A DNA stretch of 64,000 nt from Sipunculus nudus. Taxonomy: Eukaryota; Annelida; Sipuncula; Golfingiida; Sipunculidae. Of this stretch, positions 22,665-25,800 are shown piece by piece. Both the position numbers and the translations under genes were made by a program. The first letter of the stretch is position 1. Each line of letters starts with the position of its first letter. Under the pieces are notes generated by a model. It saw nothing but the letters and a program-made list of their open reading frames with translations, searched no databases and was not told the origin of the DNA. The stretch lies in assembly GCA_026874595.1 (NCBI GenBank), contig CM049312.1, positions 31,375,456 to 31,439,455 of the forward strand, in the 5' to 3' direction.

Positions 22665-22818
22665 CGGTTGCCAAACAAGGGGCGCTTGCACGAGCTGATG
22701 CAGAAAGAAGAGACGTTTGACGCTCAACTGTACAGTCCGCCCGTGGCACCTGTCACACCTACAGGGGTACCAGTGACACGTGACATTACGTTCTACACGC
22801 TGCAGGTCACTCCAAGTG
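22665..22818 (+). CDS. Exon: Pro/Thr-rich linker upstream of the ShKT module
   Basis: The acceptor follows a T-rich tract (tttgttttcag) and the donor is AGTG|GTACGT. The exon begins in phase 0 and ends with one leftover base, giving 51 whole codons that include [19 protein letters not shown]. The last 38 bases and the donor are the first unit of a seven-copy 141-bp tandem array. If the donor is not used, the frame reads ten more codons and stops at TGA (22,845), so intron retention would truncate the protein before its ShKT module. Confidence 0.7.
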
Positions 22819-25800
22819 GTACGTTTGAATGTCAGCTATTCTGGTGATCGTGTAACAGACACTGTAGTACATCTACGCACACACTGTAGTACATATACAC
22901 ACATAATCAAGTTGTTATACGTGACATAACGTACTACACGCTGCAGGTCACTCTGAGTGGTACGTTTGAATGTCAGCTATTCTGGTGATCGTGTAACAGA
23001 CACTGTAGTACTTCAACGCACACACTGTAGTACATATACACACATAATCAAGTTGTTATACGTGACATAACGTACTACACGCTGCAGGTCACTCTGAGTG
23101 GTACGTTTGAATGTCAGCTATTTTGGTGATCGTGTAACAGACACTGTAGTACATCTACGCACACACTGTAGTACATATACACACATAATCATGTTGTTAT
23201 ACGTGACATAACGTTCTACACGCTGCAGGTCACTCCAAATGGTACGTTTGAATGTCAGCTATTCTGGTGATCGTTGAACAGACACTGCAGTACATCAACG
23301 CACACACTGTAGTACATATACACACATAATCAAGTTGTTATACGTGACATAACGTACTACACGCTGCAGGTCACTCTGAGTGGTACGTTTGAATGTCAGC
23401 TATTTTGGTGATCGTGTAACAGACACTGTAGTACATCAACGCACACACTTTAGTACATATACACACATAATCAAGTTGTTATACGTGACATAACGTACTA
23501 CACGCTGCAGGTCACTCTGAGTGGTACGTTTGAATGTCAGCTATTTTGGTGATCGTGTAACAGACACTGTAGTACATCAACGCACACACTGTAGTACATA
23601 TACACACATAATCAAGTTGTTATACGTGACATAACGTACTACACGCTGCAGGTCACTCTGAGTGGTACGTTTACGTCAATTATCTTAGTGATCGTGTGAT
23701 AAACACTGTAGTATATATACATGGACATAATCAAGAATATATATATATATATATTATTGAGTAAAGCCGTCCAATAATTAGCATAGTAAATAGAAATTTC
23801 TCATGCATAAATTAAACAAGAGATATACTATATTATAAGGTAATGTGTTTATGATTTGTTGCTAGATTGTGTTCAATATGCACATGTATTTAAATTGACT
23901 AGAAATCCATGCTGTAATGTGAAACGTCCTTTCATTCTTATTGTTATTTAGATTTATTTAATTTAAACTGTACACCGCAAAAAAACACAATATATTGCAT
24001 GTAAGGAAGGGAATTTTGTTTATAATCTCAACCTATGACAACAGAAAATGTGTTTCATCTCACTAATACGGAATTCAATCAAAGACACAGATCTGTATTG
24101 TCAAATATAAAAATGCCAAGATTACATTTTTCAGATTATATTGACGAATTATCGATATAAAATGTTAAGATTTAAAATAGGTTAAAAGGCAAGAAAAGGT
24201 TAGAATTAGCGTTTAAACGTTGTTTGTGCATAAGATTATGGCCTTGTCCTTCTTCACTGGGATTTAGATGTAGCGACGAATAGGCTATTTCCTCAGATAT
24301 TGATTTATTGTTTTCTAAAATAATTTGCAAAGTGTATTAATAAATTAATGGTAGCGAATAGGGACTCAGGAAGAAGAAAAAATCTGTAATACAAATAGGC
24401 ATCACTCGTTGGAATACATTATAGTGGCTGAGTATATAAATTGTTTTGTCCTCTTTACAGATCCACGTCACTGCTATGACGCCAGCAGGCACTGTCTTAA
24501 CATCTCCCAGGAAGCCAGGTGTACCGGCGCCAATATCCACTACTGCTTCAGGTCCTGTAAAACATGCTGTACGTGTTGTATTACCTTAAAAACACTTTCT
24601 TCAAAAATTGGTCATATATATATATATATATATATATATATATATATATATATATATATATATATATATATATATATGACATATCATATTTTTTATTATT
24701 TTCTGTTACTTCCCCCTCAGTAAGTCCTTTCCGAGTTGACCAACACCAGGAGAAGCTTTGAGAATGGAATTTTATGGCATTTTTCTTTTTTATAGTATCA
24801 AGGACACCGCATAATTTATAGTGTATCACGCTTGACATTATTTTAACAATACTAATGATACTTCAATAAAACCACCGGGAGAATCAGACCGAAACCTGAA
24901 ACTTACTCAAACAAAGTTAGATTATCCATTGTACCTGTTACAGACTGGCATTACAATATCAGTTTACATAACACCGACTGGGACTAGCATGGTATTTAGA
25001 CGGGAATACACCCAGTAAATATTTAACAAAAGTGCTGGTTTACACGAAGGAGATATACTTCCGAACCAACAATCAGCATGTACGAGAAAAAAAAACCGGA
25101 GGAGCAGAAAAGCAGATATATATTTTTAGGATATGCATCAGGTGGATATGTTTAATGGGTCAGGAAAAAAAGGCAGATTGAGCATTTTGTCATGTTTCTT
25201 ATAATCTCTTCGGCTATTCAGTTTGGTACAATATGTATCATTTGGGACCTAGATCTACGAGGAGGTCGTCTAAGCGAGGACTGTAATAAAGAGCACAATA
25301 AACTGACCGTTATTTTGAGGTGGTCCCTAAGCCGAGATGGTCGTTAGGCAAGGTTTTGCGAAATTATGTCTATATATATATTATATATATATTATATATA
25401 TATATATATATATATATATATATATATATATATATACGCTCCTTAAAATCCCCGAGTAATTCGTCTCAAAATGTTTATCAGCCCCCCCCCCCCCCTCCCG
25501 TTCAGAGAAGTTTCTCAGTATATATAAATTCCTTTCCGCCACTTATAGAAATAGAAAAAAATTAATGGACTTGCCCAATATCCCTGGCTTGTCCCTAATT
25601 TGCAAAAAAAATGAGGACACATTATTTTATATTGGAGTTCATTGTTCAGATTACTTTTAATACTTTTTTCTATTTATTCCTTGCTTCAGCAAAACTAACC
25701 ATAACATGATATGGTGTATAGCCTTGATATGAGTGATCAATAAAATGCATTTATTTTCTCATTGACCTAATTTATGTTCAGTCTCAGACCAGATCAATCT

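Follow-up and report, generated by a model that had tools for sequence, protein, structure and literature searches.

Seven tandem copies of an exon end and its splice donor at the start of an intron in Sipunculus nudus

A close published precedent for the locus considered here is the VNTR in intron 18 of human ABCA7. Its 25-bp units start at the GT of the exon-18 donor and are present in about 12 to 427 copies, and RNA that retains one unit and so carries a premature stop was found, in a share independent of array length (PMC5954066). In human polyubiquitin, dual-specific splice sites in UBC can drop or keep repeat units (PMC10809524), and tandem duplication over an exon boundary has been described as a source of new introns (PMC4974935). 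The array that we describe here lies within a stretch of 64,000 nt of the Sipunculus nudus genome, which was analysed as a whole and is called the window below (GCA_026874595.1, CM049312.1, positions 31,375,456 to 31,439,455 of the forward strand). Like the ABCA7 array, it starts at an exon end and carries a donor in each unit, such that the intron opens with many donors, and a retained unit is predicted to bring a premature stop. It differs in having a unit of 141 bp rather than 25 bp, of which 41 nt are coding exon, and seven donors, and in being known from sequence alone, whereas the use of later donors was seen in RNA in ABCA7. It shares with UBC an AGGT that recurs in each unit at a fixed distance divisible by three; UBC units, however, are coding and vary the copy number of the protein, whereas the units here hold a stop and would have only a 13-nt end piece to exchange. 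As in the duplication case of PMC4974935, the repeated segment spans the border between exon and intron and includes an AGGT, but the boundary there is an acceptor, with a new intron detected, and the boundary here is a donor, with no sign of a new intron. None of the entries listed by literature searches names this gene or array.

The host gene was rebuilt from open stretches bounded by splice signals, picked by eye for an open frame. Seven exons join in frame, and the phases agree at every junction:

22665-22818, + strand: exon, phase 0 to 1, encoding a Pro/Thr-rich linker; its last 41 nt are repeat copy 1 (in-frame junction with 24461)
24461-24568, + strand: next exon, phase 1-1, with an ShK-like six-cysteine segment (in-frame join)
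25919-26120, + strand: exon in which DUF7043 begins (Pfam match of the joined protein)
29578-29642, + strand: exon continuing DUF7043 (Pfam match of the joined protein)
30258-30362, + strand: exon in which the DUF7043 match ends (Pfam match of the joined protein)
33351-33530, + strand: exon that, with the following one, resembles DUF7042 (Pfam score below cut-off)
34500-34588, + strand: exon carrying on the DUF7042-resembling region (Pfam score below cut-off)

Because the splice sites were chosen by eye to keep the frame, the open frame is weak evidence for this model, and the independent part of the evidence is the gain in DUF7043 score. The joined protein matches DUF7043 (PF23070) with 42.3 bits (E 1e-10), above the cut-off of 27, whereas the open stretch around exon 25919-26120 by itself reaches 15.8 bits and single exons stay under the cut-off. 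This gain backs the junctions downstream of 25919 and not the junction 22818/24461, which is proposed on the basis of phase and splice-site scores. Splice sites were scored with generic matrices that were not trained on this organism, and all percentiles are relative to the sites in the window; on this scale, exon 22665-22818 has its acceptor, TTTTCAG, at the 98.1 percentile and its donor, GTG/GTACGT, at the 97.8 percentile. The two DUF7042-resembling exons together score 21.6 bits against a cut-off of 27, and no such match appears in the scan of the whole joined protein. Exon 24461-24568 misses the Pfam cut-off for ShK (PF01549; 12.3 bits, E 0.27, cut-off 20.9), is likewise without a match in the joined-protein scan, and is for this reason called ShK-like only, after its six-cysteine spacing. 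The upstream open stretch 20853-21119 has no Pfam match. When the genome was searched at the protein level, 22 matches had an E of 10 or less, of which seven fall in the host gene and 15 elsewhere, and paralogues at two loci on contig C10 and on contig C5 have an ShK-like segment followed by the same domain as the host gene. Given this layout of the paralogues, the donor at 22819 is the one that would yield a protein of the family's layout. A genome search with the DUF7043 family itself returned seven matches, none of them in the host gene, where the domain is split over three exons.

The array occupies positions 22778-23713 on the + strand of the window, with a period of 141, 6.7 copies, 94% matches and 0% indels, and its TRF score of 1669 is far above chance expectation. 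The exact 141-bp tandem unit named in the original prediction is thereby confirmed, as is the amplification of an exon end with its donor to seven copies; the shared exon part, put there at 38 bases, is in fact 41 nt, and the remaining 100 nt of the unit are intron. Units 1-6, cut at 22778 + 141k, are 93-99% identical in pairwise comparison. Unit 7 has in its exon part the same letters as copies 2, 3, 5 and 6 and a diverged tail, and matches units 1-6 at 60-64% over 141 nt without gaps. The coding frame that had been claimed for the copies holds in copy 1 and in copies 2, 3, 5, 6 and 7, but the peptide of copy 4 differs. Similarly, the donors had been described as near-identical, and the six bases GTACGT are indeed intact in all seven, but the exonic triplet before them reads GTG everywhere except in copy 4, where it is ATG.

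What might have given rise to such a unit? An origin from a dispersed element was rejected, because a single unit used as query against the 1.43-Gb genome found at least seven matches, all inside the array; the whole array as query was found in at least one place. The three units that were folded were not more stable as RNA than their shuffles (z 0.88, 1.71 and 0.98). Variable sites number 5 of 41 in the exon parts of copies 1-7 and 8 of 100 in tails 1-6 (Fisher p 0.52), or 4 of 41 against the same 8 of 100 if the exon parts of copies 2-7 are taken (p 0.75). Relative to the intronic parts, the exon-like copies thus give no sign of coding constraint, in a sample that is small and does not prove its absence.

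The donors, and the stop that lies behind the first of them, are:

22819-22824, + strand: donor 1, GTACGT, keeps the frame with 24461
22845-22847, + strand: in-frame TGA met when donor 1 is skipped, after residue 60 of the exon reading
22960-22965, + strand: donor 2, putative decoy; direct use leads to a stop
23101-23106, + strand: donor 3, putative decoy; direct use leads to a stop
23242-23247, + strand: donor 4, putative decoy, ATG/GTACGT, in the copy without the AATCAAG AG; direct use leads to a stop
23383-23388, + strand: donor 5, putative decoy; direct use leads to a stop
23524-23529, + strand: donor 6, putative decoy; direct use leads to a stop
23665-23670, + strand: donor 7, putative decoy, with the diverged last tail behind it; direct use leads to a stop

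All seven score between 2.95 and 3.08, at the 97.8-98.1 percentile of the 3724 GTs in the window, and the six other donors of the host gene span the 86.3-99.9 percentile. Reading through donor 1 adds nine residues, GTFECQLFW, and then meets the TGA; this holds for direct use of any of the six later donors. The same in-frame TGA lies nine codons past the donor in units 1-6, so that the units are not open coding modules; because of this stop, the divisibility of the period by three, which had been pointed out in the original prediction, is of no help to the retention of units.

We consider it quite probable, from the arrangement of these elements, that the array is a young minisatellite and that its repeat unit of 141 bp took in, by chance, the last 41 nt of a coding exon, the donor of that exon and the first 100 nt of the intron, with donor 1 making the protein and donors 2-7 acting as decoys. 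The spliceosome would mostly pick donor 1 and thereby produce the 154-nt exon, and occasional use of a later donor would give nonsense transcripts that are degraded; the array would hence be neutral or slightly costly. Older in vitro work reportedly found that, of two equal donors, the intron-proximal one can win, and this, together with the near-equal scores of the seven donors, can be counted against such an explanation.

Conceivably, the copies might instead be put to use. The original prediction had each of them as a symmetric 48-nt microexon adding 16 residues, allowing a protein repeat of variable number. Its AATCAAG, 48 nt before the donor, is present in copies 2, 3, 5, 6 and 7, but copy 4 reads AATCATG, such that the AG is lost in one of the six downstream copies; copy 1 is the exon proper. 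Wherever the AG is present, in five copies, the 48 nt are open and in phase 1-1, and the intron from donor to AG would be 93 nt. Chance alone, however, readily supplies a symmetric open microexon, since each interval from one donor to the next holds five to seven AGs and exon sequence that was copied along makes up 41 of the 48 nt. Above all, the acceptor is poor: AATCAAG scores -11.8 bits, at the 12th percentile of the 3188 AGs in the window, with 7 pyrimidines in 15, as the prediction itself had warned, whereas the host gene's seven acceptors range from -1.2 to 7.9 bits (82.6-99.7 percentile) and have 10-13 pyrimidines in 15, and a YTNAY motif was not found within 50 nt of it. Given the quality of the acceptor, the AG lost from copy 4 and the lack of any sign of coding constraint on the exon-like copies, we have rejected tandem microexons, which seem to us highly improbable and leave the idea of a variable protein repeat unsupported; the fallback offered at the same time, an ordinary minisatellite in the intron and splicing from the first donor, fits better. 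A better alternative than the microexon begins at another motif of the exon part, CTGCAG/GTCACT, which recurs in every copy and supplies one AGGT every 141 nt, seven in all and at a distance divisible by three. The first of them is:

22803-22808, + strand: CAG/GTC, candidate dual-specific splice site (AGGT); six more follow at intervals of 141 nt

If each CAG/GT could serve both as donor and as acceptor, a splice from the first to that of copy k would remove whole units and leave a 13-nt end piece followed by donor k. Length and frame of the mRNA are unchanged in all six isoforms computed in this way, and the predicted products vary in their last residues alone (VTPS, VTLS or VTPN). The site lies at the 94.5 percentile as a donor and at the 86.7 percentile as an acceptor (94.0 in copy 4), within the range of the host gene's own, weaker sites, and human UBC drops or keeps repeat units in this manner (PMC10809524). 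There is again no branch-like YTNAY within 50 nt, which is a poor test here because one of the seven host acceptors is without the motif and in two others it lies no more than 10 nt from the AG. It is because the pyrimidine tract is weak (8-9 of 15) and the final exon piece would be just 13 nt that we regard dual-specific splicing as unlikely. Were it to occur, any of the seven donors would be usable with an in-frame mRNA of the same length, the duplication would buffer itself against the decoy donors that it created, and the residues VTPS, VTLS or VTPN would reveal which copy had been used.

The decoys might also have a regulatory effect, if later donors were used often enough for the copy number to set the share of nonsense transcripts and thus to tune expression. 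Such a proposal can draw on the near-equal scores of the seven donors, on the stop after each of donors 2-7 and on the lower expression seen with longer arrays in ABCA7, and yet the ABCA7 report has the unit-retention isoform unchanged with array length and its authors conclude that nonsense decay does not explain the lower expression (PMC5954066); for the present array we think it unlikely. Finally, the array might be an artefact. Tandem arrays are common sites of assembly error. The copies here, however, carry 13 variable sites, of which 5 fall in exon parts 1-7 and 8 in tails 1-6, the last tail is diverged and the array sits in an 84-Mb contig, all of which makes an artefact very hard to credit.

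How might the minisatellite have grown? We envision that an early duplication left the real exon end at the left edge and an older intron tail at the right edge, that the inner unit, a tail plus an exon end, then multiplied to six copies, and that the first exon end would have been held by coding selection. The element at the right edge is:

23673-23735, + strand: diverged last tail, T7 (alignment and 22-bp TRF rows)

Counted from donor to donor, the six inner units have 1-10 mutual differences in 141. From the inner consensus, the left-edge exon part differs at 4 of 41 positions and the right-edge tail at 51 of 100 (ungapped), and the inner tails differ at 1-3 sites. T7 is 22 nt shorter up to AATCAAG, with one 22-bp sub-repeat compared with two in the other tails, and is probably older intron sequence. 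This pattern at the edges fits an older duplication followed by a recent spread of the inner unit. Exon part 4 has four differences from the consensus, most of them common to exon part 1; 2 differences separate it from exon part 1 and 4 from the other copies, and the history of the copies is therefore more complicated than a single expansion.

As a biological system the locus is ordinary. Seven near-equal donors in one intron nevertheless offer a natural experiment on the choice that the spliceosome makes between almost identical sites, in which copy 1, copy 4 and the remaining five copies can be told apart by sequence. Like ABCA7, the locus is also an example of a minisatellite that has captured the end of an exon and thereby placed premature stops within range.

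An exon end has been caught in this manner at a second place in the gene family. In a paralogue (C10:55506251-55506370, in locus L025), the last part of the ShK-like exon, together with its GTAAGTTT donor, forms three tandem copies of period 31 (TRF score 115, 76% matches), with donors at 9371, 9402 and 9433 of L025 and the array region at 9350-9445 (C10:55506350-55506445). Direct use of the later donors leads to a stop in both genes, but the paralogue has a different exon and a different unit, and its array is probably an independent event. A scan for repeated donors in 27 loci, in which 30-letter stretches with at least 25 letters alike were sought within 400 nt, returned this paralogue as the only case at a known exon end (L011, L016 and L025 overlap and count as one case); matches were also present in L002, L003, L004 and L023. 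The TRF output ran to 44 rows for the window, counting overlapping ones, and to 6 rows for L025; tandem arrays are thus abundant, and the involvement of two exon ends in one family may be a coincidence.

The notion that donors seed minisatellites in this genome was rejected for want of a clear enrichment. Three AGGTAAGT motifs at a spacing of 28-58 nt occur in 1032 places and the reversed pattern in 662; two control motifs of the same dinucleotides occur in 241 and 632 places, and their reversed patterns in 840 and 543. The count for the donor motif is therefore the highest of the six, by 1.2 to 4.3 fold over the five controls (241-840), but these are places rather than arrays, and one array can yield dozens of them. 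When the listed places on contig C1 were grouped manually, the distinct arrays numbered 6 for the donor motif, 6-7 for AGTAAGGT and 0 for AAGTAGGT.

Several other features came to light. On contig C1, positions 1041372-1045843 hold a 4.4-kb array of 58-bp units, many with a AGGTAAGT donor-like site. Within the window, a second minisatellite (30429-30737, period about 70, or 141) lies 66 nt past the host gene's donor at 30363, which it does not include, and a 278-bp tandem array of 2.8 copies was reported by TRF at 18757-19524. On the minus strand, 46031-51315 contains gene pieces with AbfB domains (PF05270), which were found in four of the eight open stretches scanned (best two E 5.5e-23 and 7.7e-20). 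Many of the 30 loci of a genome search with the trypsin family are near-identical matches on small contigs; ten of these matches, on nine contigs among C61-C89, all score 77.1 bits and lie in 525-aa open frames, and their equal scores suggest bacterial contigs in the assembly.
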